From NCBI GenBank assembly GCA_017399905.1, contig JAFQAR010000057.1, positions 1 to 39,071 of the forward strand: DNA of 39,071 nt, read 5' to 3'. Positions 5,351-24,314 of the stretch are shown here, piece by piece (the stretch's first letter is position 1; each line of letters opens with the position of its first letter). The stretch comes from Bacteroidales bacterium. GTDB lineage: Bacteria; Bacteroidota; Bacteroidia; Bacteroidales; UBA932. The position numbers and the translations under genes were made by a program. The notes below the pieces were generated by a model that saw only the letters and a program-made list of their open reading frames with translations, was not told where the DNA came from and did not search any database.

Positions 5351-5357
5351 TGTCGTT

Positions 5358-7797: not shown

Positions 7798-7827
7798 TTG
7801 TAGAGACGTTAAAAAACGTTATCTTTG
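7798..7827 (+). promoter_or_regulatory. Near-consensus promoter of the SusC/SusD operon
   Basis: TTG (7798-7800), exactly 19 bp, then TATCTTTG (7820-7827) followed by C. Transcription should start close to 7831-7834. This leaves almost no leader for an ATG at 7840 but about 30 bases for the ATG at 7861, which supports the later start. No separate operator or ECF-sigma-type site is evident. Confidence 0.7.
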
Positions 7828-7860
7828 CAGGTTTGAAAAATGTTCACTAAAAAATATTTG

Positions 7861-10803
7861 ATGAAAAGCTGTTTAAAATTTTTGTTGACAATCGCTTTGT
7901 CAGTCTTCGCAGGTCTTCCTGTGCTGGCTCAGAGTGAGGTCAAGGTGGTCGGTCTGGTCACATCTGCCGATGACGGACTTCCGATGATCGGCGTCGCAGT
8001 AATGGCGGGACCGGGCAATGGCGTCATCACTTCTCTTGACGGAGAATATGAGATCCATGTGGCTCCCGGCACCGAGCTGACTTTCTCCAGCATAGGTTTT
8101 CTGGACGAGAAGGTGGTTGTCCCCCAGACTGAAACATTTACTTGCAACGTAGTCCTTCAGACTGAAACCATGAAGCTTGACGATGCCGTCGTCATTGCAT
8201 ATGGTGTCAGGAAGAAAGGTACGGTGGCCGGTTCCGTTGCCACTGTCAAGTCGGACAAGCTCGAGAATACTGCATCGGCTGCCTTTGACCAGGCTCTCCA
8301 GGGCCAGGTTGCGGGACTTACCGTCCTCTCGAGTACCGGTGAGCCGAGTGCATCTGCAACCATGACCATCCGAGGAACCAACTCCATCAACTCCGGTACA
8401 GCTCCTCTGTATATCCTTGACGGTGTTGCAATTTCCGCATCAGACTTCAATACCATCAACCCTGCGGATATCGAGAGCATGTCAGTGCTCAAGGATGCAT
8501 CCTCAACTTCGATCTACGGAGCTCGTGCGTCAAACGGTGTGATTGTCATCACTACCAAGCGCGGACGTAATATGGACCGTCCTAACATAAACTACCGCAT
8601 GCAGATGGGTATATCGTCGATGGCTCATGGAAACTGGGACCTCATGAATACTGCGGAAAGGATCCGGTATGAGAAGGAGACAGGAATGAGTGCGGGACAG
8701 AATTACGAACTTCTGTCAAGGACCGATGTCAACTGGATGGATGCCGTCTTCAACGACAGAGCCATGCTTCAGAGTCACGAGGTGTCTGTTTCTGGTGCAA
8801 ACGACAAGACGAATTATTACTTCTCCGGTGGCTACTACAATCAGGATGGTATTGCTCCAGGTTCGCAGTTCGAGCGTTATTCGATGCGTTTCAACTTTGA
8901 ACAGCAGATGTCCGGATGGCTAAAGATGGGTACGAACACGATGTTCAATTTCCAGAATATCCAGCAGGCTGACGAAGGAGACTATACTCTTGTAACCCCG
9001 ATCTCCGCAGCGCGTTTCATGCTTCCTTATTGGAATCCTTTCAAGAAGGACGGGTCGCTTGCCTCCATCAAGGACGGTTCCTGGACCGGACAGGGACAGA
9101 ACCCTCTCGAATGGCTGGAGAACAATCCCGTGACATATAAGAAGTACAAGGTGTTCTCGATGGTTTTCGCTGAGTTCAATATCTACAGGAATCTTGTGTT
9201 CAGGTCGCAGTTCTCAGCAGACTTCTCGCATACTACCGGCTTGAGCAAGTCTTTCCCCAGCTATCCGCCTAATCTTGGTGAAGGAAAGGCTGCGAGAAGT
9301 TCGAGTGACGGACTCAACCTCCAGTGGGGAAATACACTTACATACAGGTTCGACATCGACAATATTCACGATTTCAACTTCCTTCTCGGACACGAGTGGC
9401 AGAATTATCACAGCGAAGGCTTCAGTGTTTCCACCCAGGGCCAGACAAATGATAAGCTGACCGATATCTCGACCGCTACACGTGCTACAGGATGGAGCAG
9501 TACATCAGCTTCCGATTATTCCCGTGTTTCGTTTTTCGGAAGAGGAGAGTATAATTTTGCAGACCGCTACTATGCCGAGGTGTCACTCCGTACTGACGGC
9601 TCGTCACGTTTCGGTCGCAACAACAGGTGGGGACTTTTCGGTGCAGTCGGCTTCATGTGGAACATGAGGAATGAGGACTTCATGGCAGATAAGCGTGAGT
9701 GGTTGACCATGAGCCAGATATCCTTCAGCTCTGGAACTGCAGGTAACTCGGAAATCCCTAATTATGAGCACCTTGCGCTTATCGGAGGTGGCCACGGATA
9801 CGTCGGTGATTCCGGAGTCGCTCCTGTCCAGCCGGGTAATGAAAGCCTGACATGGGAAAGCACATGGACGAGCAACCTCGGTTTCCATTTCGGTTTCTGG
9901 AACAGGCTTAATGTGGATTTCGAACTCTACTGCAAGAGAACGACAGACATGCTCATGGAAGTTCCTAAGTCATATGCCGAGTCTAACGGTTACGGATATG
10001 TCTGGGACAATGTCGGTGCCATGTTGAACATGGGTGCGGAGCTTAACCTCACTGCAACCGTCATTACATACAAGGACTTCAACTGGACAGTAAATGCCAA
10101 TGCCGGCTACAACCACAACAGGATCGTGGAGCTCTACAACGGGGTCAATGAATATGAGACAGCCAATACGAGTACGAAACTTGTTGTCGGACACCCTCTC
10201 GGAGAATTCTACATCAACAGATATGCTGGAGTGAATCCTGCGAACGGTGATGCCCTCTGGTACGACAAGGACGGAAACATAACGAATGAACTTCGCGATG
10301 AGGACAGGGTGCTTGTCGGAAAGTCATATCATGCTCCTTGGCAGGGTGGTTTCGGCACAGCCTTCTCATGGAAAGGACTCAGCCTTAGTGCTCAGTTCGG
10401 ATGGGTTGCAGACAGGTGGATGCTCAACAATGACCGTTATTTCGATGAGTCAAACGGCCGCTTCGCCACTTACAACCAGTCTCGCAGGCTTCTCGACAGA
10501 TGGAAACAGCCTGGTGACATTACCGACATACCTCGTCACGGCATCTTTACAGAATTCGACAGCAGGCTTCTCGAAGATGCTTCCTTCCTTCGTCTGAAGA
10601 ACCTCAATCTTTCATACTCGCTTCCTTCGGACCTGCTGAAGAAGACGGGTTTCATCAGAGGCCTCAGACTATATGTACAGGGACAGAATCTCCTGACTTT
10701 CACTAATTTCTCAGGACTTGATCCGGAAGGCACACGTAATATATATGCTGCCCAGTATCCTATGTCCCGCCAGTATACATTCGGTCTGGATCTGCTGTTC
10801 TAA
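7861..10803 (+). CDS. SusC/RagA-family TonB-dependent outer membrane transporter
   Basis: This is the 22-strand outer membrane channel of a SusCD importer, powered by TonB. Counted from the ATG at 7861 (980 residues), it has a signal peptide ending VLAQ (about residue 24) and a carboxypeptidase-regulatory-like domain (about 27-108, VVGLVTSADDGLPMIGVAV). Next come a TonB-box-like DDAVVIAYGV and the plug with the family signatures YILDGVAIS and SVLKDASSTSIYGARASNG followed by VIVITTKRG. A long barrel ends in YTFGLDLLF. There is no N-terminal STN domain, so signalling through an anti-sigma factor is not expected. An in-frame ATG at 7840 would add seven residues and nearly touches the promoter. 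It is the first gene of the nine-gene operon, and SusD begins 4 bases later. The substrate is not readable from sequence; the neighbouring protease suggests peptides. Confidence 0.96.
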   Translation: MKSCLKFLLTIALSVFAGLPVLAQSEVKVVGLVTSADDGLPMIGVAVMAGPGNGVITSLDGEYEIHVAPGTELTFSSIGFLDEKVVVPQTETFTCNVVLQTETMKLDDAVVIAYGVRKKGTVAGSVATVKSDKLENTASAAFDQALQGQVAGLTVLSSTGEPSASATMTIRGTNSINSGTAPLYILDGVAISASDFNTINPADIESMSVLKDASSTSIYGARASNGVIVITTKRGRNMDRPNINYRMQMGISSMAHGNWDLMNTAERIRYEKETGMSAGQNYELLSRTDVNWMDAVFNDRAMLQSHEVSVSGANDKTNYYFSGGYYNQDGIAPGSQFERYSMRFNFEQQMSGWLKMGTNTMFNFQNIQQADEGDYTLVTPISAARFMLPYWNPFKKDGSLASIKDGSWTGQGQNPLEWLENNPVTYKKYKVFSMVFAEFNIYRNLVFRSQFSADFSHTTGLSKSFPSYPPNLGEGKAARSSSDGLNLQWGNTLTYRFDIDNIHDFNFLLGHEWQNYHSEGFSVSTQGQTNDKLTDISTATRATGWSSTSASDYSRVSFFGRGEYNFADRYYAEVSLRTDGSSRFGRNNRWGLFGAVGFMWNMRNEDFMADKREWLTMSQISFSSGTAGNSEIPNYEHLALIGGGHGYVGDSGVAPVQPGNESLTWESTWTSNLGFHFGFWNRLNVDFELYCKRTTDMLMEVPKSYAESNGYGYVWDNVGAMLNMGAELNLTATVITYKDFNWTVNANAGYNHNRIVELYNGVNEYETANTSTKLVVGHPLGEFYINRYAGVNPANGDALWYDKDGNITNELRDEDRVLVGKSYHAPWQGGFGTAFSWKGLSLSAQFGWVADRWMLNNDRYFDESNGRFATYNQSRRLLDRWKQPGDITDIPRHGIFTEFDSRLLEDASFLRLKNLNLSYSLPSDLLKKTGFIRGLRLYVQGQNLLTFTNFSGLDPEGTRNIYAAQYPMSRQYTFGLDLLF

Positions 10804-10806
10804 TTG

Positions 10807-12327
10807 ATGAATATGATGAAGAAGATATATAATGACATTTTGATAAGGATGGCCGCGATGCTTGCGGTTGTCCTGAGTCTGAATTCCTGCCTTGAGAAGA
10901 ATCCCGGCGATTTCATTCTTGAGGAAGAAGGAATGTTGACTTTGGCTGATGCCGAGCAGACCCTTACCGGAATATATTCCGCATATATGAGCGGCGGTCT
11001 ATATAGCGGATACCTTACCTTGACTCCTGATATCCAGTCTGACCTTGTCTATGCCGTCCAGGGTAATTCCAACGCCTATGGAAACATATGGCAGTGGGAT
11101 ATCCGTTCTACCAGCGCCGAGATAGAGGCTGTCTATGCTTCTCTTTATACGGTCATCGGAAGATGTAACTTCTTTCTTGACCTTGTAGGTGACCTTCGTG
11201 CCGGACTTACGGATGATGCCAGCATCGAGACCTTGGATTTCTATACCGGAGAAGTATATTGTGCAAGAGCCCTTGCATATTCCGAGCTGATCAAATGTTT
11301 CTGCAAGGCCTATGATCCTGCGACTGCCGATTCTGAACTTGGACTCGTCCTGCGCACGAGCTATTTCAGGAAGGAGCCTGTCGTGAGGGCGAGTCTCAAG
11401 GAGTCTTATGAATTAGTGATCTCTGACCTCGAGAAGGCGGAATCCCTGCTTGACGAGAAATACGATTCATTCGACTCTCCTTATTTCACCGATGCATCGG
11501 CAAATGCAATCCGCGCACGTGTAGCCCTTTACATGCAGGATTGGGACAATGCAGTGAAATACTCGACCAGGCTCATTGAATCTGATGCGTTCTCTCTTGC
11601 TACCGCCAGGTCTTATGTGACGACGTCACAGACCTTCCTTGATTACATGTGGACTAATGATACTTCATATGAGCATATATGGAGGATTGGATATACGCAG
11701 ACCTCTTACGGCAATCCACAGGGATCAGTATTCCTGAATTTTACAACTGACTATACATATTATTATCCGGACTACGTTCCTGCTCAGTGGGTTCTGGACC
11801 TCTATCAGAGTGCCGACAGAAGGTATTATGCCTATTTTGCCGAACTCCAGACAGGATATTCCCATCAGCTTTCATGGCCGTTGCTCGTAAAGTATTATGG
11901 TAATGAGACGCTTATAAGCCTGCTCATATACCATGTAAATATGCCGAAGCCTCTTCGTCTTGCCGAGCAGTACCTCATCAGGGCTGAGGCTAATTGCAGG
12001 AAAGGCAACTATCCTGCAGCATCGGCAGACCTTACAGAACTCAGGGAGTCACGTTTCACCACCGGTGGAGCTGTCAGCGTCAATGCCGGCAACTGGCTCG
12101 AAACAATTTCCGAAGAACGTGTCCGCGAGCTCTATATGGAAGGTTTCAGACTTCATGACCTCAAGCGTTGGGGCAAGGGCTTCAAGCGTACTCCTCAGGC
12201 TCATTCGCAGAAGGAAGGAAGTTCGCTTGAGATAGAGGCTGGCAATCCTATGTTCGTGTGGCCGATACCTAAACATGAACTTGAGGCTCCGGGATCGGAT
12301 ATCAAGCCTAATGAAAGCAACAGATAA
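10807..12327 (+). CDS. SusD/RagB-family surface lipoprotein
   Basis: This is the substrate-capturing lid that sits on the SusC barrel. The product has 506 residues and a lipobox LNSC (Cys28) followed by LEKNPGDF. The helical TPR-like core shows the usual landmarks: AEQTLTGIYSAYMSG, VIGRCNFFLDLV, YTGEVYCARALAYSELIKCF with a following YDPATADSELGLVLRTSYF, RLAEQYLIRAEANCRKGNYPAASADLTELR and the C-terminal ERVRELYMEGFRLHDLKRWGKG. I start it at the ATG at 10807; a TTG three bases earlier is in frame but unlikely. It follows the SusC stop by 3 bases, so translation is probably coupled. The pairing with SusC is certain by family; the ligand is not. Confidence 0.95.
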   Translation: MNMMKKIYNDILIRMAAMLAVVLSLNSCLEKNPGDFILEEEGMLTLADAEQTLTGIYSAYMSGGLYSGYLTLTPDIQSDLVYAVQGNSNAYGNIWQWDIRSTSAEIEAVYASLYTVIGRCNFFLDLVGDLRAGLTDDASIETLDFYTGEVYCARALAYSELIKCFCKAYDPATADSELGLVLRTSYFRKEPVVRASLKESYELVISDLEKAESLLDEKYDSFDSPYFTDASANAIRARVALYMQDWDNAVKYSTRLIESDAFSLATARSYVTTSQTFLDYMWTNDTSYEHIWRIGYTQTSYGNPQGSVFLNFTTDYTYYYPDYVPAQWVLDLYQSADRRYYAYFAELQTGYSHQLSWPLLVKYYGNETLISLLIYHVNMPKPLRLAEQYLIRAEANCRKGNYPAASADLTELRESRFTTGGAVSVNAGNWLETISEERVRELYMEGFRLHDLKRWGKGFKRTPQAHSQKEGSSLEIEAGNPMFVWPIPKHELEAPGSDIKPNESNR

Positions 12328-12332
12328 AAGAT

Positions 12333-13244
12333 ATGCGTATGAAGAATATTTTCAGATATATTATACCTGCTGCTCTGACTGCCGTTTCATTTTGCGGCTG
12401 TCACGAGAGATATGTCACATATTCCGATGCTGAATATGTGCTGTTTGCCGATACTCTCAAGACATATCCTGTCCAGCCAGATGTGGAATACTTCGCCATA
12501 CCGGTCGTATCTACCGTAAAAAGGGACTATGACAGGACATTCGGCGTTGAAATAATCGACAAAGGCAACAATGCGATAGAGAACAGGCATTACAGACTGA
12601 AGTCGAACACTATCACCATAAAAGCCGGTGAAACACGCGCGGACGTGCTTGTACATGGATATTATGACAATATCGATGCAAAGGACTCCATAGGTTTCCA
12701 GCTCCGTCTGGTCATGGATGAGAAACTTGTGATGCCGATGTACGGCAATCAGACCAAGGCTGTCCTTATGAAGAGCTGTCCGTTCGATATCAATGATTTC
12801 ACAGGATATTGCGTGCTGACATCGATGTTCCTTTATGACTACAGCATAACAGGCTCATATCAGCGGCTCGTATATACCGAGAAGCATCCTACGGAAAAGA
12901 ATATGATTATCTGCCGTAACTGGCTGAATGACGGATATGACGTTACGATGACATTCCATCCGGAAGATCCGATGATGCCTGTCGTTACTATGGATGATGA
13001 CCAGGTGGCAAGTGACGAAGGATCTTTCTTCGGAACTGTTCATGGTGACGACAAGATTCTTGTTACGGACAGCCCATATTACGATTCGCTGTTCTATCCG
13101 TGCGGAAAATATCTGTACCTGTGGGCTCAGATATATGTGAAGAATCTCGGCGAGGACATCGGAACCGTCGGTCACTTCTATAATATCATGGAATGGATCA
13201 GTGACGAGGAGGCGGACCGTCTCAGAAGAGAAGAAGGAATGTAA
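12333..13244 (+). CDS. Small surface lipoprotein, DUF4843/DUF4984-like
   Basis: The protein has 303 residues with a signal peptide and a lipobox CGC (Cys23 in SFCGCHERYVTY). Residues about 30-150 look like a Calx-beta/DUF4843-style Ig fold (YFAIPVVSTVKRDYDRTFGVEII, then HYRLKSNTITIKAGETRADVLV). The second half, from CPFDINDFTGYCVLTSMF to the acidic C-terminus, resembles the DUF4984 domain often found there. It sits 5 bases after SusD. Small extra lipoproteins encoded behind SusD are known to ride on SusCD complexes; in Bacteroides thetaiotaomicron the peptide-binding BT2261-BT2264 complex has two of them. A similar accessory role is inferred. An alternative ATG two codons later (12339) is possible. 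Confidence 0.75.
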   Translation: MRMKNIFRYIIPAALTAVSFCGCHERYVTYSDAEYVLFADTLKTYPVQPDVEYFAIPVVSTVKRDYDRTFGVEIIDKGNNAIENRHYRLKSNTITIKAGETRADVLVHGYYDNIDAKDSIGFQLRLVMDEKLVMPMYGNQTKAVLMKSCPFDINDFTGYCVLTSMFLYDYSITGSYQRLVYTEKHPTEKNMIICRNWLNDGYDVTMTFHPEDPMMPVVTMDDDQVASDEGSFFGTVHGDDKILVTDSPYYDSLFYPCGKYLYLWAQIYVKNLGEDIGTVGHFYNIMEWISDEEADRLRREEGM

Positions 13245-13267
13245 AACGACTTAACATATAATGGATT

Positions 13268-15667
13268 ATGAAGATATTTGATAACATATTGAAAATGGTG
13301 GCATTGTCATCGCTGCTTTTCGCCATGTCAGCATGTACGAAGCCAGGTCCTGATGATGGTGGCCAGCCTGAAAAGGAAGCTCCTGCTTTCCCGGCATTGA
13401 TTGAGAATTATTCTGTACATCCGGGTGAGGTCCTTAAGATCACTTTCACTCCAAACTACGATTGGGAAGTGTCTGTTCCGTCTGAAATGAGACAATGGTT
13501 CTGGATCAAGGACGGCTCGTTCACCGTTACAAACATCCGTGGCACTGCGTCGGAGACCCCTGTCACCGTAGAGGTATGTGTTACTGATAACGATGAGTTT
13601 GACAAGAACTTCTCATGTGAGGTTACCATGAAGATGGACAGTCAGACTAAGGTTGTAGCGAAATATATGCTTCCTGCAAAGGAAAGGACACTTTCCGTTT
13701 ATGCGGCGGAATGGAATGATGACGGCTCTCTCAAGATAGCAGAAGATGGCGAGTCTTATGTCTATTCAATGGTCGAGACTTCATCGTTCGATCTCAAATG
13801 GTCAGCTGCCGATGCGGATTTCAGGGCTCCGGTCGCTGTGGAAGCGAATTGCGAATGGGAGGTGGAGCTTCCTGAGTGGCTTGCTACCAATGTGCCGGAG
13901 ACTACCTCAGGAGTGGTCGAGCTTGTTTTCACCGGTGTTTCTTTGGAAGATGCATCCGGAAAAGTCGTTTTCAAGGCAGGTGGTGAGGTACTGAAGGAAC
14001 TGGATGTGACAGTGCCTTCTTGCAGTGAGATGAATGTGTACTCTGCGGTCGTGACAGATGGGGAATTCGAATATGGAACCGACGGTGAGTATCTCTGGAC
14101 AGATGATGCTGTAGAGGAAGTTACGTTGGCATGGCTCGGATCCGACTTCAGGATGCCTGTCAAGATTGACTCCAAGTGTGACTGGACTCTCGAGGCTCCT
14201 GTATGGATCACTGCCGAAATCCCTGAGGAGACAGCGGGCCTTATTTCGCTTACACTTATGGGCAATCCTTCGAAATATCCACTTGAGGATACATCCGGCA
14301 AGCTTGTATTCAAGATGGGTGATGACGTGGTGCATGAAATGACTGTCAATATCCCGGGATGCAGGGAAATAATGACTTACTCCGTATCAATGGCACTTAC
14401 TGAACTTGACTTCAATCATGTCGGTCAGATAAAGGCTTCTGCAGGATTCATTGACGGACCGGTAACGGCGACGATTTTCGGTTCTTCCGAATCAGATGTG
14501 TTTGCGGTTGAATACGTTAATGGAAAATACGACCTGAATGCTTCTGACAATCCTGAATGGCTCGACATTACAGTCGGCTCATTCGATTCATCTGACAATG
14601 CAGATGTCCTCCAGAGCAGGGAGGTTACGGTTTCCGTAAAGGAGAACGAAGGTGACGAGCGTAGCGCTCTTCTCTTTTTCATGCCATATAATTTCTGGGG
14701 AAAATTGAGCAATCTTTTCAATGATGAAAAGACCGAAGTCAAGGAAGAGTTCAAGGCATACGCGGTTCCTGTAAGACAGCTGTCCAATGATTCCGAGTAT
14801 ATCACGCCTTCTTCTGCAGACGAAGTCATGGCGGCAGCCGGAGCTGAATTCGGCCCTGCAGCTGATGACAGAAAGACGGAACTGACTTCAGTATTCGGAG
14901 AGACAAAATATGTCTATACGCTTGTATATGACAATATATATGCCCGTGATGAGGCCTTCCTTGCCATGGCAAGACCGTTCACGTCTGTCAAGGTATTCGA
15001 TCAGGATAAGGCTGACCGCTCTTCTGATGAGTCTTTCTGGCTCAAATATACAAACGGTGGAGATACCAATACATTCGGTGTGATAGATATGTATGCCGGT
15101 GAAGACATGACTCTTCCTGAGGAGCCTTCGGTCGGATATGTCGTATTCTATGATTCGCTTGGCAATGTGCTTGCTATCGTGGAATGTATTTCTCCTAAGA
15201 ATGAAGAGCCTGTAGTCACTCCGCCGGAAGAAGGCGGTGAGCAGGATGAGGATGGGGATATGGTAGAGAGTGCGTCATCATTCTTCACTGACCCTTCTGC
15301 AGCTGCAGCAGCCGGTGCGAGCATCGTCAAGGTACTTTCCGGACCGACATATGATTTCTGCAAGGAAGAGATAAGCCAGGGTGCTACTCTTCTCAAGCTC
15401 ACCTTGCCGGAAAATGTCGCAGTAGGTCTGTCTCTGCCGGAAGACTGCGGATATTATCAGATGCCTTATTCATTGAGCAGTTATATAAAGGTCAATGGTG
15501 AAGACTATTCTGAAACTTCAGGAATACTCAATCCTGCCATAACTTCAGCAGAGGTTTCGATGACTTCTCTTCCTGACGGCAACTCTCAGACTCCATATCT
15601 GAGGTTCCATACGAGCATGTCTGAGACCTATCCGTTCCTTATCGTATATCTTTACATCAGTAAATAA
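13268..15667 (+). CDS. Large surface lipoprotein with tandem Ig-like repeats (DUF5003-like)
   Basis: The protein has 799 residues, lipobox MSAC (Cys23), then a Pro/Gly/Asp linker. Residues about 40-140 form a first beta domain (YSVHPGEVLKITFTPNYDWEVSVP). Two clear repeats follow at about 172-251 and 283-364. Each has DFR.PV, then CEW or CDW, a P.W motif, PE-T-G, a short L-rich strand, ASGK or TSGK with VFK, and a final V-P-x-C or I-P-G-C motif. The C-terminal half is less repetitive, with an acidic linker near residues 660-675 and a run of Ala (SAAAAAGA). It resembles the DUF5003 lipoproteins seen in other Bacteroidales SusCD operons, but I cannot confirm this without a profile search. No catalytic motif is visible. 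A substrate-binding or scaffold role on the SusCD complex is inferred. Confidence 0.7.
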   Translation: MKIFDNILKMVALSSLLFAMSACTKPGPDDGGQPEKEAPAFPALIENYSVHPGEVLKITFTPNYDWEVSVPSEMRQWFWIKDGSFTVTNIRGTASETPVTVEVCVTDNDEFDKNFSCEVTMKMDSQTKVVAKYMLPAKERTLSVYAAEWNDDGSLKIAEDGESYVYSMVETSSFDLKWSAADADFRAPVAVEANCEWEVELPEWLATNVPETTSGVVELVFTGVSLEDASGKVVFKAGGEVLKELDVTVPSCSEMNVYSAVVTDGEFEYGTDGEYLWTDDAVEEVTLAWLGSDFRMPVKIDSKCDWTLEAPVWITAEIPEETAGLISLTLMGNPSKYPLEDTSGKLVFKMGDDVVHEMTVNIPGCREIMTYSVSMALTELDFNHVGQIKASAGFIDGPVTATIFGSSESDVFAVEYVNGKYDLNASDNPEWLDITVGSFDSSDNADVLQSREVTVSVKENEGDERSALLFFMPYNFWGKLSNLFNDEKTEVKEEFKAYAVPVRQLSNDSEYITPSSADEVMAAAGAEFGPAADDRKTELTSVFGETKYVYTLVYDNIYARDEAFLAMARPFTSVKVFDQDKADRSSDESFWLKYTNGGDTNTFGVIDMYAGEDMTLPEEPSVGYVVFYDSLGNVLAIVECISPKNEEPVVTPPEEGGEQDEDGDMVESASSFFTDPSAAAAAGASIVKVLSGPTYDFCKEEISQGATLLKLTLPENVAVGLSLPEDCGYYQMPYSLSSYIKVNGEDYSETSGILNPAITSAEVSMTSLPDGNSQTPYLRFHTSMSETYPFLIVYLYISK

Positions 15668-15681
15668 TTGGATCAGCGATT

Positions 15682-18309
15682 ATGAGATTATCGTTTAATA
15701 TATTATTGTCAGCCGCCATCCTTCTGTCTTCTCTGATTTTCGGAAGCTGTTCGAAAGTCGAAGAGCCGGATTATCGTGAGAAGGTGTACGGATATGTGCA
15801 GTTCAAGCTGTACAAGGAGGCTTCTTATGACGGCACTAAGGCTGTTGTGTCTCAGCTGGATTATCTGAAGGATGTCTCTAAGATAAAGGTGACCCTCAGG
15901 TATGACGGCAATGAGATCACCCAGACTCTTGTGATGAACAGCTCCGATGAGGATGCAGCCGAATTCGGACTGAGAAGCGATAAGCTGAAGCTTCTCGCGG
16001 GAGATTACAGCATTTCCACCTTCACATTGTTCGACAAGCAGGATCAGCCTCTGTATGTAAGGACTCCTTCCGAGGAATTCTCGAACTTTACCGTCGTGGC
16101 AGGAGGATTGTATGTGCATGATCTTGTCGCAGCGGCTGTCCAGAGAGGAAAAGTCAGATTTTCCATTGTCAAGGATATGTCTGATCTTTCGGGAAATCCG
16201 AAGACAAAGGCTGTTACGGATGAATATACCTTTGATGAGATTGAATATGCGACAATAACCGTCAAGACGGGAAATACCACTTTGCCGGCATTTGAGATGC
16301 TGCCGATGGACTTCTCGGTTCATTTTACCGATGATGGCGTAGAGGATGGATACATGACGTCTTCTTTGTCATGTGATTCTCTTCTGACTGTCAGGGCGGG
16401 CTCATATGAGGTCGTGTCATATGCTCTTTATGATTCCGGAAAGAAGCTTCTTGAAGCTGACTCCGATGTGAAGAATGTGAAGTTCGTTGTCACGGATAAC
16501 GATGTCACTGATGCGGATGTTCCGGTAGCGCTCAAGGAGAGCGACGAATATATAAAGGATTATTATGCCCTTTATGAAATATGGAAATCTCTCAATGGAG
16601 AGGACTGGTACTATGTCGGTGAAGATTTTCCTCGAGGTGCTAACTGGAATTTCAACAAGGATCCCGATCTTTGGGGAGACCAGCCTGGCGTTTCGCTTCA
16701 TTCAAACGGACGTGTCGCCTTGCTGAATCTCAGTGACTTCGGTTTCCATGGCCACATGTCACCGGCCTTGGGTCAGCTGACAGAACTTGTCGAACTGTAC
16801 CTCGGATCTCACAACGATATGAATCTGGGAGGATATGACCCGGTGGTACAGCCTGGAAAGGGTACTGCTGAAAGGATGTCCAGACATAAGGAATACATGA
16901 AGCTCCTTCATCCTGTGACCCAGATGTCAGAGCCTATCGCCAGAGCATATGCCGAGCATGGCATCACATTCCCTGAGATCGCTATGTACGAGAACTTGGC
17001 TGAAGATCAGATCATAGAAAAGGGTACAGGATCGATGAGGATCAGACCGATGGATATGATATCAGGAAAGATCAACAACGGATTGAAGAGTCTTCCTGCT
17101 CAGATTGGCAATCTTACCAATCTTGAGCAGCTGTTCATCGCAAACAGTGAGATCGAAACTCTCCCTGATGAAATGGCAAATCTCAGGTCATGTACCGATG
17201 TGGAGGTATACAACTGTCCTAAGATGACTCAGTTCCCTATGGTTCTCGCGCGTATGCCGGAGCTTGTGACGTTGAACATTGCGAATAACCTTCAGTGGAG
17301 TCCCGAGGAAGTCCTCAAGGGTTTCAAGGCCATAGCTACAGGCCCGTCAGCCGAGAAGCTACAGCTTCTGTATCTTAACCAGAACAATCTCGAAGTCATT
17401 CCGAAGGAAATCAAGAACATGAAGAAGCTCGGTCTTCTTGATTTTGCATCAAACCGTATCCATACCATTGAGGAAGCATGGGGCAATGACATCAAGCCTG
17501 TACAGCTTTATCTTGACAACAACAGGCTGTCTTCATTCCCGGTAGATGAGAACGGCGTATTCTGTTATATGGAAGATGCTGAAACCTTCTCGGTAAAGAA
17601 CAATGATTTCACAGAGTTCCCGAACATCTTCGATGCAGAATCGATGTTTGCGATAGTTTCCGTGGATTTCTCTTACAATCATATCGCCTCTTTCCCTGAA
17701 GATTTCCGAGGTATATATGTCCAGACCCTTACAATTGCCAATAATCCGGAGTTCACGGCTTATCCGGTCGAGCTTGCAAAGTCGAATTCGAAGATCATGA
17801 ACATAAACTTCAGAGGATGTAACATCAGCGACATACCTGAAGGATCATTCGAATATGAGAATGCGGTGCAGCTGCAGTCTTTCGACTTTTCATATAATGA
17901 CCTTGACGATCTTCCTTGGGAGATGCATGCCGGCAACATGCCTTACCTGTATGGTGTGGAACTTTCATATAACAAGTTCTCAAGCTTCCCGTGGGAACCT
18001 CTCGATTCCCAATACCTTACTGTGTATGCAATACGCGGACAGCGTAATGATGAAGGCGAGAGATGCCTTTCCGAGTGGCCTACAGGACTGTATAACCATA
18101 GAGGACTCAGAGGTTTCTATATAGGTTCGAACAATCTTGGTAAAATTGAGGATACCATTTCTACTCTGATCTATTATCTTGATATCAGTGACAATCCGGA
18201 AATCATTTTCGATGCTTCCGATATCTGTTATGCCCATCAGCAGAATGTGTATTACCTGATTTATGACAAGACTCAGGACATCAGAAATTGTGATTATATG
18301 TTGAATTAG
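15682..18309 (+). CDS. Leucine-rich-repeat surface lipoprotein with two DUF4458-like domains
   Basis: The protein has 875 residues with lipobox FGSC (Cys23). Residues about 33-155 and 156-285 are two copies of a beta domain like DUF4458: each has a strand with GYVQFKLYK or GKVRFSIVK, an LTVRAGSYEV or LKLLAGDYSI turn and a final variable strand. Residue 290 onward gives the bacterial LRR cap (DYYALYEIWKSLNGEDWY, then NW, W and GRVALLNL). A run of leucine-rich repeats extends nearly to the C-terminus, for example LTNLEQLFIANSEIETLP, LQLLYLNQNNLEVIP and VSVDFSYNHIASFP. LRR arcs bind proteins, so this is probably a protein-binding surface receptor. It lies 15 bases after the DUF5003-like gene. 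Confidence 0.85.
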   Translation: MRLSFNILLSAAILLSSLIFGSCSKVEEPDYREKVYGYVQFKLYKEASYDGTKAVVSQLDYLKDVSKIKVTLRYDGNEITQTLVMNSSDEDAAEFGLRSDKLKLLAGDYSISTFTLFDKQDQPLYVRTPSEEFSNFTVVAGGLYVHDLVAAAVQRGKVRFSIVKDMSDLSGNPKTKAVTDEYTFDEIEYATITVKTGNTTLPAFEMLPMDFSVHFTDDGVEDGYMTSSLSCDSLLTVRAGSYEVVSYALYDSGKKLLEADSDVKNVKFVVTDNDVTDADVPVALKESDEYIKDYYALYEIWKSLNGEDWYYVGEDFPRGANWNFNKDPDLWGDQPGVSLHSNGRVALLNLSDFGFHGHMSPALGQLTELVELYLGSHNDMNLGGYDPVVQPGKGTAERMSRHKEYMKLLHPVTQMSEPIARAYAEHGITFPEIAMYENLAEDQIIEKGTGSMRIRPMDMISGKINNGLKSLPAQIGNLTNLEQLFIANSEIETLPDEMANLRSCTDVEVYNCPKMTQFPMVLARMPELVTLNIANNLQWSPEEVLKGFKAIATGPSAEKLQLLYLNQNNLEVIPKEIKNMKKLGLLDFASNRIHTIEEAWGNDIKPVQLYLDNNRLSSFPVDENGVFCYMEDAETFSVKNNDFTEFPNIFDAESMFAIVSVDFSYNHIASFPEDFRGIYVQTLTIANNPEFTAYPVELAKSNSKIMNINFRGCNISDIPEGSFEYENAVQLQSFDFSYNDLDDLPWEMHAGNMPYLYGVELSYNKFSSFPWEPLDSQYLTVYAIRGQRNDEGERCLSEWPTGLYNHRGLRGFYIGSNNLGKIEDTISTLIYYLDISDNPEIIFDASDICYAHQQNVYYLIYDKTQDIRNCDYMLN

Positions 18310-18324
18310 CGGAAAATGCAGGAC

Positions 18325-19950
18325 ATGAACAGATATAAGTTTTTATCAATTATCATGGCTATGGCTGTCTTTGCAGCCTGCGGACCGGAGAATGTTGAAT
18401 TTGATGTTAACACCGGTTTCGGTGACGGAGCGCTTTCCATCGGTCCTGAAGGAGGTTCCCTTCCTGTTGAAGTGACCGCTGGAGGTGACTGGGTGGTTAT
18501 CACGGAAGAGCCCTGGATTTCTGTTTCTCCGGCTAACGGACGAGGCGTCTCAAGATGTGTCGTGAGCATTGACTCGACTCTGACTGTGTCTGAAAGAGTC
18601 GGTGCTGTCCGTATCCAGAGTCTGGATGATGTGGATGAGAAGAAGGACTTCAATATCGTCCAGAAAGGTTTTGATTATCAGATCGTTCTTGACGAAACAT
18701 CAGTTGAAGTCGAAGATTTTGCCGAATACGGGGAAAGATATTTTCAGGTAAAGGTAAAGTCGAATATAGATTTCGATGTAGTGTTGCCGGAGGGTGCCGA
18801 ATCATGGCTTTCATACAGCAAGTCGGCTCCTGATTTCGACAGAGGTGCAAGACCGAGAAGTTCGGTGATACGTTTTGATTGGAGAGTGAATTCCCGTGAC
18901 CATGAGAGGATTGCGGATATTTCCTTCAAGCCGCATGAGCAGGTGACGATGGGAAAGCACGATGGGCTTAAGGTCGTGCAGAAGGCTGCTCTTCCTATAC
19001 CTGTCGGTACTCCGGCAGGCGACTCGCTTGCAATACTTGCTGTAAGCCGTGCATTGGGCTGTTTTACAGAGTTTGACACATCGGAAAGGATGGAACATTG
19101 GAACAATGTGGCGGTATGGAAGAACGGTCCGGATAAGGGACGTGTGAAATATGTCCAGTTCTTCATGTTCAAGACACAGGAGGAGATACCTTTCGAAATA
19201 CAGTATCTGACTGCTGCAGATGAGATCGCCATCTACTCCAATGCGAACCATTTCCTCCGCAATCTCGATACCGGTGAGCATATCGCCAAGCTTACACAGC
19301 TCAAGAGGTTGACGATCGGTGCCTATGGCTTGACTTCGCTCCATCCTGACTTCGTGAATCTCAAGAATCTTGAGTACCTTGATCTCAGTTCGAACTGTTT
19401 CCAGAAAATTCCAGATATCCTCACTCCTGAGAACTTCCCGAACCTTCACTCGCTTATACTTAATGCAAATCAGAGGCATACGATCTATGACCTGAGCAAT
19501 GACAAGAGGGAGAGTATCGGAGGATTTGTAGATGAACCGGGCTTCCCTGTCCGTCTGCTCAAGTGGAGAAATCTTGATACGTTGAGACTTTCCGTAAATT
19601 ACATAGAGGGCGAAATTCCTGATCTCAAGTATGAACCAGGAATAGAGAAGTGGACCGCAGAAGAAGTCAATGCGTGCGATACACTTCCGGAAATCCTCAT
19701 AGGCTTGCCTAAGGTGCTTCCGGATACGGATTTCTTTGCAATCAATTTCAACAGATTGACAGGAGAACTGCCGGATTGGCTTTTATATCATCCTAAACTC
19801 GATTATTGGTTACCTTACTCATTGGTCTTCTCTCAGGAAGGAAAGACCCGTGACGGCCAGAATGCGGGTTTCAGCAATGAACCTGTCAGCCTGGACTACT
19901 ATTACGAGCATTATCAGAACAAGAAGTTGAACCCGAACAATAATAAATAG
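18325..19950 (+). CDS. BACON-domain and leucine-rich-repeat surface lipoprotein
   Basis: The protein has 541 residues from the ATG at 18325; an in-frame ATG at 18316 would add three. The lipobox is FAAC (Cys19). Residues about 37-115 form a BACON-type Ig domain (SIGPEGGSLPVEVTAGGDWVV, W-ISVSP.NG, RVGAVRIQS, F-IVQKG). A second, more divergent copy lies at about 120-221 and ends LKVVQKA. An LRR-cap-like segment (SLAILAVSRAL, then W and GRVKYVQFF) and leucine-rich repeats at about 290-500 follow, such as LTQLKRLTIGAYGLTSLHPDF and LKNLEYLDLSSNCFQKIPD. The tail is Asn/Lys-rich. It shares cap and repeats with its upstream neighbour, so the two may be diverged paralogues with different N-terminal domains. 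Protein binding at the cell surface is inferred. Confidence 0.85.
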   Translation: MNRYKFLSIIMAMAVFAACGPENVEFDVNTGFGDGALSIGPEGGSLPVEVTAGGDWVVITEEPWISVSPANGRGVSRCVVSIDSTLTVSERVGAVRIQSLDDVDEKKDFNIVQKGFDYQIVLDETSVEVEDFAEYGERYFQVKVKSNIDFDVVLPEGAESWLSYSKSAPDFDRGARPRSSVIRFDWRVNSRDHERIADISFKPHEQVTMGKHDGLKVVQKAALPIPVGTPAGDSLAILAVSRALGCFTEFDTSERMEHWNNVAVWKNGPDKGRVKYVQFFMFKTQEEIPFEIQYLTAADEIAIYSNANHFLRNLDTGEHIAKLTQLKRLTIGAYGLTSLHPDFVNLKNLEYLDLSSNCFQKIPDILTPENFPNLHSLILNANQRHTIYDLSNDKRESIGGFVDEPGFPVRLLKWRNLDTLRLSVNYIEGEIPDLKYEPGIEKWTAEEVNACDTLPEILIGLPKVLPDTDFFAINFNRLTGELPDWLLYHPKLDYWLPYSLVFSQEGKTRDGQNAGFSNEPVSLDYYYEHYQNKKLNPNNNK

Positions 19951-19955
19951 TGAAG

Positions 19956-21977
19956 ATGATCAGAAGAAAAGCAATACATATACTGGCTTCAGTCCTTCTT
20001 GCAGGATTTACGGCTTGCTCTGTCGATGGTCCGCAGACAAGTGTGGATACAGATGAGTCCAAGCTGCCTCAGATGTCTCCGGATGTTGTGGAAGGCCAGC
20101 TTCTTGTGCGTTTCGATGCAAGGGTGAGCGAAATCCTCGACAAGGCCGGTCTTACCAAGAGCGGCCCGGCCCGCCCTATGAAACGTTCCGGTGTCATGTC
20201 TGTCGACGAGATACTTTCGCTTGTGGACGGATACCATATCGAGAGAGTGTTTCCTGTGGACGTCAGGTCTGAAGACAAGGCGCGCGAAGAGGGACTTCAC
20301 CTTTGGTATGTCGTGAAATTCGGCAAGGAACATTCCGTGGAGAAGGTGGCTGAGGACCTTTCCAAGCTGGGAGAGGTGAGCCGGGTGGAATACAACCGTA
20401 CCCTCAAGCGTTCCGATGACAAGCCTGTTCCATTGACTATGGACAAGCTGCGCAAGATGACGCCGAAGGCATCGGTAGCCTTCAATGACCCTCTGCTCGG
20501 GGACCAGTGGCATCTTGTGAACGACGGAACTCTCCGGGAGACGAAGTTCCTTCCGGATGCGGATGTTCAGGTGAAGGATGCATGGAAACTCACTACAGGT
20601 GATCCTTCCATTATCGTCGCCGTTCTTGACGAGGGTGTCGATGTGACCCATCCGGACCTCAAGGCAAGCATGTGGGTGAATGAAGGCGAAATATGGGGAT
20701 CGCATGAAGATAATGACGGCAATGGATATGCCGGTGATGTACATGGATACAATTTTGTCGGAAAAAGCGGCCTCATTTCCGTGAGCTCACTTTATGATAC
20801 CGGTCACGGAAGCCATGTCGCCGGCGTGATCGCTGCTGTGAATGACAATGGCGAGGGCATAAGTTCCATCGCCGGCGGTACTGAATCGGCACCTGGAGTA
20901 AGGATAATGTCTTGTCAGATCTTCTCGGGATTGTACGCAGGAACAGTTCTGGAAGAGGTGAGGGCAATCAAATATGCGGCCGATAACGGTGCGGTTATCC
21001 TTCAGTGCAGCTGGGGATACATTTCAGGTGCGGCAAATCCATATGAATGGACTCCGCAGTATTCTACCGATGAAGAGTGGGAGACATATAACGTTCTTGA
21101 AAGAAAGGCCCTGGATTACTTCATCCACAATGCGGGATCTCCTGACGGCGTGATAGACGGAGGCCTTGCAATCTTTGCAGGCGGTAACGAGGCAGCTCCG
21201 GCAGCCAGCTATCCGGGAGCTTATCCGGACTTCATCGCTGTTGCTGCAACGGCCGGCGACTTCACTCCGGCGGTTTACAGCAACTATGGTCCGGGAACTA
21301 CGATTTCTGCTCCTGGCGGAGATCAGGATTACTATTGGGACTATGTGGACGAGGACCATAGGCTCGGAGAAATCGGCTGCATCCTTTCGACTCTTCCTAT
21401 GCATGTCAGCGAAAGCGGTTACGGATATATGGAAGGAACATCAATGGCCTGTCCTCATGTTTCGGGAGTCGCTGCTCTGGGACTTTCATATGCAGCAAAG
21501 CTCAGAAGACATTTCACTGCTGACGAGTTCAAGGCTTTGATATACGAGACAGCACTGCCTATAGATTCTTATATGAAGGGCAATAAGCAGTATAAGAAAT
21601 ATGTTATCGATCTTGAACAGTCATCGCCTATGATGCAGATCAGCCTTGATGCGTTCAAAGGCAAGATGGGAAGCGGACAGATCAATGCATACGGACTTCT
21701 CAAAGCGGTTGAAGGTGCAGGAACAGAGATGACCTTCCCGAACCTGTATGTGGCCGAAGGCGGTCAGGTGAAGGTATCGCCGTCTATGTATATGGACGGA
21801 AAATCCTTTACCGTTTCTGTCAGCGATCCTGAGGTCGCATCTGCTGAGATCAGGGACGGAATGATGATCGTCAAGGGCCTCAAGACAGGTCAGACAGAAG
21901 CATCGGTTACCGGTGCAAGGACAGACAGGTTCGTGATAACCGTCCGCAGCGGGGCAAACGTAAACGGCTGGCTATAG
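19956..21977 (+). CDS. Subtilisin-like (S8) serine protease, surface lipoprotein
   Basis: The protein has 673 residues from the ATG at 19956. A GTG at 19950 overlapping the previous stop would add two residues. The lipobox is FTAC (Cys21). An N-terminal prodomain-like region (about 45-150, VEGQLLVRF and WYVVKFGKEHSVEKVAEDL) precedes the peptidase. The catalytic triad is complete: Asp225 (VAVLDEGVDVTHPDL), His284 (TGHGSHVAGVIAA) and Ser496 (GTSMACPHVSGVAAL). Asn411 (AGGN) is the oxyanion residue. An Asp/Asn-rich loop (EDNDGNGYAGDVHG) probably binds calcium. About 75 C-terminal residues look like a Big_2-style module. It should cleave proteins at the outer face and feed the SusCD importer, although maturation of operon proteins is another possibility. 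Confidence 0.93.
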   Translation: MIRRKAIHILASVLLAGFTACSVDGPQTSVDTDESKLPQMSPDVVEGQLLVRFDARVSEILDKAGLTKSGPARPMKRSGVMSVDEILSLVDGYHIERVFPVDVRSEDKAREEGLHLWYVVKFGKEHSVEKVAEDLSKLGEVSRVEYNRTLKRSDDKPVPLTMDKLRKMTPKASVAFNDPLLGDQWHLVNDGTLRETKFLPDADVQVKDAWKLTTGDPSIIVAVLDEGVDVTHPDLKASMWVNEGEIWGSHEDNDGNGYAGDVHGYNFVGKSGLISVSSLYDTGHGSHVAGVIAAVNDNGEGISSIAGGTESAPGVRIMSCQIFSGLYAGTVLEEVRAIKYAADNGAVILQCSWGYISGAANPYEWTPQYSTDEEWETYNVLERKALDYFIHNAGSPDGVIDGGLAIFAGGNEAAPAASYPGAYPDFIAVAATAGDFTPAVYSNYGPGTTISAPGGDQDYYWDYVDEDHRLGEIGCILSTLPMHVSESGYGYMEGTSMACPHVSGVAALGLSYAAKLRRHFTADEFKALIYETALPIDSYMKGNKQYKKYVIDLEQSSPMMQISLDAFKGKMGSGQINAYGLLKAVEGAGTEMTFPNLYVAEGGQVKVSPSMYMDGKSFTVSVSDPEVASAEIRDGMMIVKGLKTGQTEASVTGARTDRFVITVRSGANVNGWL

Positions 21978-21980
21978 GAT

Positions 21981-22757
21981 ATGGGTTCATTCAGGGTGTA
22001 TGCAGTTCTTCTGCTGACGGCGGTAATGTGCTTTCCGGCTGGAGCTCAGTTGAAGATAGTGCCGAGGGAAAGGCTGGAAAGCGTTGTCTCTCCTCGTCTT
22101 TCGCGGGATTCCTCCTCGCTTCTTTTCGATGTGCGGAGGATTGCTGCAGCCCCGATGAATGAAGATGACCCTCCGTCTGTGTACAGCTATCCGTTCCGGA
22201 ATGTGGGAAAGGACCCGGTAAGGATAAGGCTGATCAGAACCACATGCTCATGCCTTGCCGCCTTTTGCGATGTTTCTGTAATACAGCCAGGAGAAAGGGC
22301 CTCAGTTACGGTAAGATATGATCCGGAAGGACATCCCGGACGTTTCGAGAGGAAGATTTTCGTATATACCCAGGAGGGAAATGAGCCTTGTGCGGTCTTG
22401 AGCCTGAATGTCACTGTGGCTTCCGGGGCCGATCTGTCGGATGAATATCCTGTCCAGATGGGAGGAATAAGACTCCGCAGGAACAGCCTGAGTTTCCGGA
22501 AAGGGGTGAAGGCTGTGGAAAAGATCAGGTTCATCAATACAGGGGACTCTTCCCTTGTCATAGATTGTGAAGAATTCTTTCTTCCGGCCTGCATAGGTTT
22601 CGAATCGAGGCCGGCCAGGGTGGAGGCTGGAGAAGAAGGTGAGCTGGTAATATCTTATGATCCGGCTTCCGATCAGGGAAGAAACAACGTGAAACTTATG
22701 CTGAAAGGGCTGGGAGTCCCTCCAGGCCAGGCTACGCTGAATATCAGAATAGAATAA
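21981..22757 (+). CDS. Periplasmic DUF1573-domain protein
   Basis: The protein has 258 residues. The signal peptide ends CFPAGAQ and has no lipobox, so it is probably secreted to the periplasm by signal peptidase I. Two DUF1573-like (ASPM/SPD2-type Ig) domains are visible. The first has YPFRNVGKDPVRIRLIRTTCSCLAA, then VIQPGERASVTVRYDPEGHPGRFERKIFVYT. The second has IRFINTGDSSLVIDC and VEAGEEGELVISYDPASDQGRNNVKLML. The family is widespread in Bacteroidetes and its role is not established. The gene starts 3 bases after the protease stop, within the operon. Confidence 0.85.
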   Translation: MGSFRVYAVLLLTAVMCFPAGAQLKIVPRERLESVVSPRLSRDSSSLLFDVRRIAAAPMNEDDPPSVYSYPFRNVGKDPVRIRLIRTTCSCLAAFCDVSVIQPGERASVTVRYDPEGHPGRFERKIFVYTQEGNEPCAVLSLNVTVASGADLSDEYPVQMGGIRLRRNSLSFRKGVKAVEKIRFINTGDSSLVIDCEEFFLPACIGFESRPARVEAGEEGELVISYDPASDQGRNNVKLMLKGLGVPPGQATLNIRIE

Positions 22758-22772
22758 AAAGTATCATATATT

Positions 22773-23237
22773 ATGAAAAGAATAAGAACAATAATCGTTG
22801 CAATGCTTGTTGCCATATCCTTGTCTTCAGTATCCTGCAGGAAACCGGGTGAGGATGTCGTTTACCTTGAAGTCAATGCAAACAACATTTCAGGCAAATG
22901 GGAACTTGTGGAATGGAGCGGTACGTCATTCAACGACGGAACGTACATATTCCTTGACATTGTACGAAATGACAGGACCTTTACCATGTATCAGAATGTT
23001 GACAGCTTCGTGGATATGCCTCATGTGGTTACAGGGTCGTACTACCTTGAGAACGATCCTATGCTCGGTGCTGTCATCCGTGGCAATTATGACCATGATG
23101 CAGGTGACTGGTCGCATCGCTATATCATCAGCGGGCTAACAGAGACAAGCATGACATGGACTGCAAAGGATGATGATACCTTTGTACAGAAATTCCAGCG
23201 TGTGGAAACGATTCCCGTGGCTCCTGACCAGGAATAG
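22773..23237 (+). CDS. Small lipocalin-like lipoprotein
   Basis: The protein has 154 residues with lipobox VSC (Cys22 in LSSVSCRKPG). The body has the order of strands seen in Bacteroidetes lipocalin-like proteins: NISGKWELVEWSG, GTYIFLDIVRNDRTFTMYQ, VTGSYYLE, RYIISGLTETSMTWTAKDD. The family typically forms a small beta barrel of unknown ligand. It is the last gene of the operon, 15 bases after DUF1573. Its stop codon lies inside a palindrome that also holds the stop of the convergent LytTR gene. Confidence 0.7.
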   Translation: MKRIRTIIVAMLVAISLSSVSCRKPGEDVVYLEVNANNISGKWELVEWSGTSFNDGTYIFLDIVRNDRTFTMYQNVDSFVDMPHVVTGSYYLENDPMLGAVIRGNYDHDAGDWSHRYIISGLTETSMTWTAKDDDTFVQKFQRVETIPVAPDQE

Positions 23238-23250
23238 GAGCCTATTCCTG
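23229..23250. terminator. Perfect palindrome shared by two convergent genes
   Basis: CAGGAATAGG (23229-23238) and CCTATTCCTG (23241-23250) are perfect inverted copies separated by two bases. The TAG of the lipocalin-like gene (23235-23237) and the stop of the LytTR gene (23242-23244 on the minus strand) both lie in it. It has no T-run, so termination would not be purely intrinsic. Confidence 0.5.
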
Positions 23251-24135
23251 CATGGGTTCCAGAAGAGGGGACTGTTCCGTGAAATGGCTTAATACGATGT
23301 CCGTATAAGTCTTGGTTACGGATATAGGAGGTATGGCTTCATTGTCAAGGTCAAGGACATAGCCTTCGCTTTCCTTTCTCAACATGCTGACCTTCTGGAG
23401 ATTCACTACATATTTTCGGTGACATCTTACCAATGCGCTGCCCTTGAAGCTTTCTTCTACAGTCTTCAAGCGGCAGCGTAACATGTATTGCTTCAGCTCT
23501 CCCTTGCTGTCAGTGTACCATACCTTGATGTAGTTGTCGTCGGACTCTATGTAGTAAAGGTTGTCCGGATTGAGCGAGAGCTTCAGTGTGCCGCTGTTGT
23601 CGAACAATGTTATCTTCTGCATCTGAGCTTCAGGTCTGAGAGGCTCGTCAGTGACTACGTTCTCGTAGTTCATCAGCCTTATCGTATTGTTCTTGTCGAT
23701 GATGGCGAAATACATTCCGGCTATGAGATACGGGACGCCTATGGCTATGGTGCCGTACAGGAGGGAACGTCCGAAGATCTGAAGCGTGCTTTCGTCTTTC
23801 GGTGCCGTGATATCGATGGTCAGCCATGTATAGAACGCGCATAAGGCAATGATTTCCATAATGCACCATAAAGTATAGCCGAGGTAGGTCATCTCGAACA
23901 TGTTTCTGGTCTTGTACATCAACATTCTGCTGCATATCAGTATGAAGATGGCGATGGCCGCATATACGATGGTCAGAAGGAACATCACTGAATCTCCAAG
24001 ACCGAACCAGGCTGTGTCTGAGAATGGAATATATATGTTCAGGAATACCAGGGCGAAGAGGACAGAGAATGTCACTGTTCCGATAAGCTGGTATTTGCCC
24101 AGAAGATATCTGGGCAGTTTTTCGTTAAAAATCAT
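23242..24135 (-). CDS. Membrane-bound LytTR-family transcriptional regulator
   Basis: The protein has 297 residues. Four hydrophobic helices (about 16-36, 48-70, 84-106 and 124-146) are followed by a linker and a LytTR DNA-binding domain (about 185-285: NLYYIESDDNYIKVWY, LKTVEESF, LVRCHRKYVVNL, ISVTKTYTDIV). I start it at the ATG at 24135, because a good promoter lies at 24160-24191; the longer frame reaching 24303 would read through that promoter. Such LytTR proteins lack a receiver domain and may sense membrane or ligand state directly, which is inference. It converges on the SusCD operon, sharing the palindrome at 23229-23250, and could regulate it or simply be a neighbour. Confidence 0.88.
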   Translation of the reverse strand: MIFNEKLPRYLLGKYQLIGTVTFSVLFALVFLNIYIPFSDTAWFGLGDSVMFLLTIVYAAIAIFILICSRMLMYKTRNMFEMTYLGYTLWCIMEIIALCAFYTWLTIDITAPKDESTLQIFGRSLLYGTIAIGVPYLIAGMYFAIIDKNNTIRLMNYENVVTDEPLRPEAQMQKITLFDNSGTLKLSLNPDNLYYIESDDNYIKVWYTDSKGELKQYMLRCRLKTVEESFKGSALVRCHRKYVVNLQKVSMLRKESEGYVLDLDNEAIPPISVTKTYTDIVLSHFTEQSPLLEPMQE

Positions 24136-24159
24136 CGTCTGTTCTGGTTTTAGTATCTG

Positions 24160-24191
24160 CAAATTTAGAAATTTTTGCCCCAAATAACAAA
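24160..24191 (-). promoter_or_regulatory. Promoter of the LytTR regulator gene
   Basis: On the minus strand TTTG (24188-24191) is followed after 20 bp by TAAATTTG (24160-24167), matching both Bacteroides elements. The start codon is 24 bases downstream, which decides the start at 24135. Confidence 0.65.
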
Positions 24192-24281
24192 AAATCACCA
24201 CGGCCCATCTGTCTTCCGTTACGTTCCGCCAACTTTTTGCGGACCTTGCCACATTAATTTCAAGGCTCTCCTGATGCTTTA

Positions 24282-24289
24282 TAATTTTG
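24282..24289 (+). promoter_or_regulatory. Candidate -7 element of the fabH operon
   Basis: TAATTTTG followed by C matches TAnnTTTG. The -33 region is weak (ATTT about 21 bp upstream). fabH begins 25 bases downstream. Confidence 0.45.
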
Positions 24290-24314
24290 CTGCCGGACAA
24301 CAAAATCGAATAAG

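Follow-up and report, generated by a model that had tools for sequence, protein, structure and literature searches.

The window analysed here, a stretch of 39,071 nucleotides from a Bacteroidales bacterium (GenBank assembly GCA_017399905.1, contig JAFQAR010000057.1), carries on its forward strand, at 7840-23237, a nine-gene operon that encodes a SusC/SusD outer-membrane transporter, a subtilase of the S8 family and two leucine-rich repeat (LRR) proteins. The locus is a real, conserved cassette confirmed in many related genomes. Its gene content suggests a peptide-type outer-membrane utilisome encoded in one transcription unit. Protein foraging, to which we give a probability of roughly 0.6, is the best reading because SusC is nearest to RagA, the catalytic triad of S8 is kept in 44/44 orthologs and no glycan-enzyme family occurs among the nine proteins. 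We regard the operon as a variant of the SusCD/utilisome kind, in which the protease tail and its lipocalin-like partner are most worth testing.

Operon layout and conservation

The nine tightly spaced open reading frames (ORFs) are ordered SusC-SusD-DUF4984-BACON-LRR1-LRR2-S8-DUF1573-lipocalin, and comprise, with the promoter, the following elements.

7798-7827 (+): Bacteroidetes-type promoter, TTG (7798) and TATCTTTG (7820-7827), assigned from the sequence and its recurrence at related SusC starts
7840-10803 (+): SusC/RagA TonB-dependent transporter, 987 aa (TIGR04056, 787 bits, cut-off 368; Plug and CarbopepD_reg_2)
10804-12327 (+): SusD/RagB lipoprotein lid (PF07980 and PF14322, both above cut-off); an ATG slightly downstream of 10804 is a possible alternative start
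12333-13244 (+): DUF4984 lipoprotein of two domains, resembling DUF1735-type auxiliary proteins
13268-15667 (+): BACON lipoprotein (gene 4), a string of immunoglobulin (Ig)-like domains, 799 residues
15682-18309 (+): LRR1, a lipoprotein with DUF4458, LRR_10 and leucine-rich repeats (PF14660, PF18805 and LRR models)
18316-19950 (+): LRR2, a lipoprotein of leucine-rich repeats that also matches BACON weakly (family search)
19950-21977 (+): S8 subtilase lipoprotein with S8_N pro-region and full triad (PF00082, 137 bits; PF16361, 117 bits)
20016-20018 (+): lipobox Cys23 of S8, read from the sequence (pattern in 42/44 orthologs)
21966-21974 (+): C-terminal Gly-Trp-Leu (GWL) of S8 (GW[LM] end in 43/44 orthologs)
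21981-22757 (+): DUF1573 protein, signal-peptide-like N-terminus without lipobox (PF07610)
22773-23237 (+): Lipocalin_4-like small lipoprotein, proposed partner of S8 (PF13648, 23.0 bits, cut-off 22.4)

The intergenic gaps are 0, 5, 23, 14, 6, -1, 3 and 15 bases, and a terminator scan 3' of the operon returned none (0.7 expected). In gene order, the Pfam and NCBIfam matches are SusC, SusD, DUF4984, BACON, DUF4458 with LRR_10 and LRR, LRR, S8_N with S8, DUF1573 and Lipocalin_4; the family search gave no match to the STN domain in SusC. For seven of the nine proteins a lipobox is present in most orthologs. The near-consensus promoter described in the original prediction holds up: the motif, of Bacteroidetes type, recurs as TTG-N17..21-TAnnTTTG near the SusC start at 43 of 64 related loci, as compared with 1.25 expected from shuffles of single bases.

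Relatives were collected by scanning public genomes with an LRR1 alignment, which gave 217, the best 80 being used. Together with the window, loci L023-L112 make 91; removal of four duplicates (L023-L026) left 87, and 24 of these were dropped for a contig end too near. The remaining 63 full-length loci derive from LRR1 similarity (56) and from DUF4984 (7, the window included). A first pass requiring single ORFs recovered 44 strict loci plus three of the 63, and a profile pass on stop-to-stop fragments raised the number with all nine genes in the same order to 57. This order, the ORFs and the family matches bear out the predicted nine-gene SusCD operon with a surface-type protease and LRR proteins. 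Among the deviating loci, L108 is without gene 4, L097 and L112 have the lipocalin-like gene ahead of DUF1573, and L030, L031 and L032 are without S8, DUF1573 and the lipocalin-like gene. The co-occurrence foreseen for the genes is thus seen at most loci, with the last three genes missing at three. DUF5003, which had been assigned to gene 4, was undetected in that gene even at E <= 1. Flanking genes vary between loci by eye, some close relatives excepted. The record titles of the LRR1 relatives (best 80 of 217) read Bacteroidales bacterium, Alistipes, Tidjanibacter or Rikenellaceae. The 43 RGIG-labelled records among these 80 loci are, from titles read by eye and with no denominator, all from cecum, colon or rectum, none from rumen.

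In the source genome (81% complete, 2.3 Mb) DUF4984 and LRR_10 are single copy. Separate searches for the two exceeded the cut-off in the same seven of 393 genomes of the order, the window's included, with one extra LRR_10 match under the cut-off; the chance of hitting the same seven twice is 3.7e-15, although related genomes are not independent draws. At three of the seven DUF4984 loci (L030, L031 and L032, which belong to two other families) SusC, SusD, DUF4984, a BACON-like gene, LRR1 and LRR2 are followed by a third LRR lipoprotein. Since the latter replaces S8, DUF1573 and the lipocalin-like gene there, SusCD, DUF4984, BACON, LRR1 and LRR2 form the core. Mean pairwise identity in the 44 strict loci is highest for SusC (0.71), SusD (0.62) and S8 (0.58), followed by DUF4984 (0.57), LRR1 (0.55), LRR2 (0.52), the lipocalin-like protein (0.45), the DUF1573 protein (0.33) and the BACON lipoprotein (0.28). 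The fastest-evolving gene is accordingly that of the BACON Ig-type lipoprotein and not those of the LRR proteins.

If the assemblies are clean, three metagenome-assembled genomes each hold two divergent copies of the operon (L039/L041, L043/L045 and L040/L064). In both copy pairs that allow a comparison of gene 4, no other gene diverges as much. In L039/L041, the sole pair with comparable SusC, SusC is 90% identical as against 47% for gene 4.

The transporter and the case for protein foraging

A full-length SusC model and an adjacent SusD family protein identify the transporter as SusCD. Of the 11 solved sequences matched by SusC, RagA of Porphyromonas gingivalis scored 564 bits, the next 357 and BT2264 only 106, so that BT2261-BT2264, cited beside RagAB in the original prediction, is the more distant of the two. 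Both control SusC proteins of the source genome behaved otherwise: an S8-linked one gave 336 bits to 8aa4 and 316 to RagA, and the second 338 to 8ypu and 218 to RagA. S8 is linked to SusCD at 60 of the 63 full loci, SusC and SusD being present in 63/63; the refutation test set in advance, a periplasmic protease unlinked to SusCD in related genomes, thereby turned out mostly in favour of protein foraging as regards linkage. An S8 gene adjoins SusCD at four of the six S8 loci of the source genome.

If the operon does serve protein foraging, a protein substrate would be held at the cell surface by the lipoproteins around SusCD, namely LRR1, LRR2 and the Ig-type DUF4984 and BACON proteins; the subtilase, itself a lipoprotein, would cut it, and SusCD would import the resulting oligopeptides with energy from TonB. 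The capture step predicted for the LRR and BACON proteins is putative, because the DUF4984 and BACON lipoproteins have the look of auxiliary proteins or spacers of Ig type, a reading for which a part of PMC11216935 provides context. BACON is the sole match over the cut-off in gene 4, and a fold search with this protein returned mostly generic Ig-string rows that barely covered its C-terminal part. Searches of solved-structure sequences with DUF4984 and BACON lipoproteins gave nothing below E 0.01 for single queries and only chance-level rows for profiles. An additional BACON match, below threshold, lies in LRR2. LRR1 scored 494 bits to the solved LRR protein 4ecn (best stretch 497-872), which we take to be BT_0210. 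The LRR proteins were also considered as hypervariable receptors, and the test of exposed positions gave no signal either way: mean conservation at exposed positions was 0.735 as compared with 0.678 for the rest in LRR1 (P 0.10), and 0.706 as compared with 0.688 in LRR2 (P 0.89). A lipobox pattern is found in only 9/44 orthologs of the DUF1573 protein and is followed there by few acidic residues; the protein's site of action is probably the periplasm.

Several observations weigh against protein foraging. Likeness of SusC is a poor predictor of cargo, and the controls number only two. SusD is weakly similar to every solved SusD and is not closest to RagB, which at 53 bits ranks below 3kez (67), 8ypt (65) and three others. 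Relatives of DUF1735 and BACON have been described chiefly at glycan loci, and the operon contains no regulator that would point to an inducer. S8_N proteins occur in 64 of 393 genomes and are far commoner than the operon, while the core can stand without the protease, as at three of the seven DUF4984 loci. Finally, in Bacteroides thetaiotaomicron a mutant of BT_0212, one of several candidate proteases, still cleaved the single test protein, as reported in a section of PMC6282197. Protein foraging remains the best supported reading, on the strength of the S8-SusCD linkage among others, with the reservation that the protease is not universal.

The first alternative for the operon as a whole is scavenging of glycoproteins or glycans, in which a glycopeptide or glycan would be taken up, the protease would strip the protein part and the sugar-cutting enzymes would be encoded elsewhere in the genome. 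Most characterised SusCD systems import glycans, and the folds of DUF4984 and BACON are like those of auxiliary proteins of glycan loci. However, the nine operon proteins gave no match at E <= 0.001 to a glycoside hydrolase, lyase or sulfatase family, as had been predicted, nor to any other carbohydrate-active Pfam family, so the locus lacks the link between SusCD and such an enzyme that marks a polysaccharide utilisation locus. Family searches covered these nine proteins; the flanks of related loci, judged by ORF length or by eye, differ from one another. With SusC nearest to RagA in addition, we consider this alternative improbable.

Rather less probable still is a role in adhesion or in contact with a matrix: the LRR lipoproteins would bind proteins of the host, of a matrix or of bacteria, which the protease would trim, and SusCD would be secondary. 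The presence of two LRR lipoproteins would suit such a role, as would the DUF4493 and DUF4906 genes upstream of the operon, relatives of which precede SusC at some loci. Yet no components are better conserved than SusC and SusD, and the upstream genes are inconstant and located before the promoter. Capture of a protein-borne cofactor or metal such as haem or iron, freed by the protease for TonB-dependent import, is very unlikely: an excerpt of PMC10434189 lists BT0207-08 and BT0211-13 as iron-responsive in B. thetaiotaomicron, but there the genes are lower, not higher, in iron depletion, and the values in the second column, 0.084-0.57, if read as adjusted P, are not significant, which makes the iron link of these counterparts weak.

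The protease tail and the lipocalin-like neighbour

Counted from the GTG at 19950, the triad of the S8 protein is D227, H286 and S498 and its oxyanion residue N413, all present in the 44 orthologs; with its Peptidase_S8 and S8_N domains the protein is an S8 subtilase with full triad and lipobox, as originally described. Because the S8_N pro-region follows the lipobox, tethering of the mature enzyme is only putative. No C-terminal sorting domain of type IX secretion system (T9SS) cargo was matched in the window S8, which ends in GWL. In the 44 strict operons the C-terminus is GWL in 41, GWM in two and GWLR in one.

The tail was surveyed beyond the operon at 27 loci and at 60 loci picked from S8 similarity-search rows; 20 further places had been picked from S8_N genome-search rows. 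In all, 100 S8 ORFs with a stop codon and at least 200 bits were kept. Seventy of these (66 loci; one ORF of only 446 aa) end in GW[LMIV] and 30 otherwise (20 loci, some of them with copies in tandem). Most picked rows align to the last residue of the query, which inflates the proportion of GWL ends, and the informative part is the contrast in neighbours. The gene immediately downstream is lipocalin-like, as judged by the profile built from the operon, for 63/70 GW[LMIV]-ending S8 genes as compared with 0/30 of the others; SusC or SusD lies upstream of 51/70 and 6/30, respectively, some neighbourhoods being cut by contig ends. None of 2046 non-S8 six-frame ORFs of at least 200 aa, many of which are not genes and which include duplicate loci, has a GW[LMIV]-type end. 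Among the S8 proteins with other ends, 21/30 terminate in K-R, K-L or K-K, as T9SS cargo likewise does. In 12 of these 30 the next gene encodes 302-344 aa and is unrecognized by the operon profiles (L012, L114, L118-L126 and L133), and tandem arrays of at least five S8 genes occur at L127 and L129, in two genomes of family f113. One of the S8 paralogs of the source genome (L012, 14938-17532) has a sub-cut-off match to the type IX Por_Secre_tail and adjoins a different SusCD. This genome may thus export its S8 proteases by two routes.

In a midpoint-rooted S8 tree, built with the last eight residues left out, the GWL tail has a single origin (113/143 tips, support 0.95), and the state of the lipocalin neighbour changes only seven times. 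The counts of tails and neighbours therefore show long retention, not repeated origin.

These data suggest that S8 and the lipocalin-like lipoprotein may form one functional pair, the latter serving as partner, tether or self-protection inhibitor and the conserved GWL end being its likely handle. The link between tail and partner is, as deduced from sequence comparison, new in this analysis, which is not to claim that it is unpublished. The lipocalin-like protein has a lipobox pattern in 40/44 orthologs and is, like the potempins discussed below, a small lipoprotein whose gene neighbours that of one protease, although in the operon itself gene 9 stands one gene further. Alternatively, it may be unrelated to the protease, the two being neighbours through shared descent only. 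This is a serious contender, if short of even odds. With one origin of the tail and seven neighbour changes, the 63/70 are not independent cases, and the 7/70 without a recognizable lipocalin-like neighbour argue against absolute dependence. Lipocalin_4 as a generally protease-linked family was rejected: only five of its eight matches in seven genomes adjoin S8, the three others being C19 of the source genome, one in G078 and one in G258. This search was not exhaustive, since the window's own lipocalin-like gene is absent from the matches. On the other hand, the pair is kept at differing SusCD loci while S8 diverges to 42-68% identity with the survey query, and the closest S8 paralogs of the source genome, only 43-45% identical to the window S8, still keep it. 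In genome G182 the LRR operon is without both genes, and an S8 of 48% identity with a lipocalin-like gene after it is found elsewhere, downstream of a different SusCD that is accompanied by a putative metallopeptidase and by a DUF4302 protein. Of the other genomes with S8-less operons, G078 has no S8 match and G121 only a more distant one. From these patterns the S8-lipocalin pair looks like a unit attachable to various transporters.

It is tempting to speculate, and we do so tentatively, that the C-terminal Gly-Trp-Leu is an address tag read by the adjacent lipocalin-like lipoprotein, whose barrel might hold the Trp-Leu tail. The pair would then be a self-guarded proteolytic module, portable among the SusCD systems of Bacteroidales, and its tag would stand where sister proteases have a type IX sorting tail; the nine-gene operon would be the version with a RagA-like channel and two LRR receptors, a complete peptide utilisome.

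Relation to known systems

No functional study of the operon was found in the open-licence PubMed Central literature. In B. thetaiotaomicron, BT0207-08 (SusD, DUF4984) and BT0211-13 (BACON-domain protein, S8 peptidase, DUF1573) bear matching names in the same order by locus number, as listed in an excerpt of PMC10434189; the comparison is by names and covers these loci. The set is thus not special to the source genome.

RagAB is the nearest system by its SusC and differs in that the operon SusD has only weak affinity to RagB. We take RagAB to be a two-gene transporter without linked lipoprotein and S8 genes of this kind. It takes up peptides made by surface proteases, according to part of PMC11817032, which also raises the question of a utilisome-like attachment of peptidases and binding proteins to RagAB and mentions a peptide-sized cavity for the BT2261-BT2264 type. 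Our operon is a one-locus candidate for this attachment. BT2261-BT2264 reportedly is a SusCD with two added lipoproteins and peptide ligands, and presumably has no S8 or LRR genes; the weak score of BT_2264 to the operon SusC sets it further apart. The levan and dextran utilisomes of B. thetaiotaomicron likewise join a surface binding protein and an enzyme to a SusCD core (described in a section of PMC11817032; see also PMC7618045), whereas the operon, the complex of which is putative, has a subtilase for the glycoside hydrolase and LRR and Ig lipoproteins for the glycan-binding protein.

The KLIKK proteases are T9SS cargo, and some potempins are up-and-down barrels. In the KLIKK protease/potempin pairs of Tannerella forsythia a small lipoprotein is encoded beside the protease that it inhibits, but the inhibitor gene precedes the protease (both from part of PMC7296668), whereas the lipocalin-like gene follows S8. 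B. thetaiotaomicron, which has what appears to be a counterpart, is genetically tractable, and part of PMC6282197 documents the BT_0212 mutant; this makes the proposals accessible, and the short tail is easily deleted.

Neighbouring genes

The two genes just 5' of the promoter (4238-7688, +) encode DUF4493/DUF6359 and DUF4906/Big_2 proteins, which we take to be fimbrillin-type families. Downstream, a convergent gene for a protein with a LytTR DNA-binding domain (23242-24303, -) ends four bases past the operon. A LytTR gene adjoins the operon in six further non-duplicate loci (L034, L044, L053, L060, L064 and L070); this adjacency probably reflects chromosomal synteny, because the next ORFs mostly match those of the window in length.

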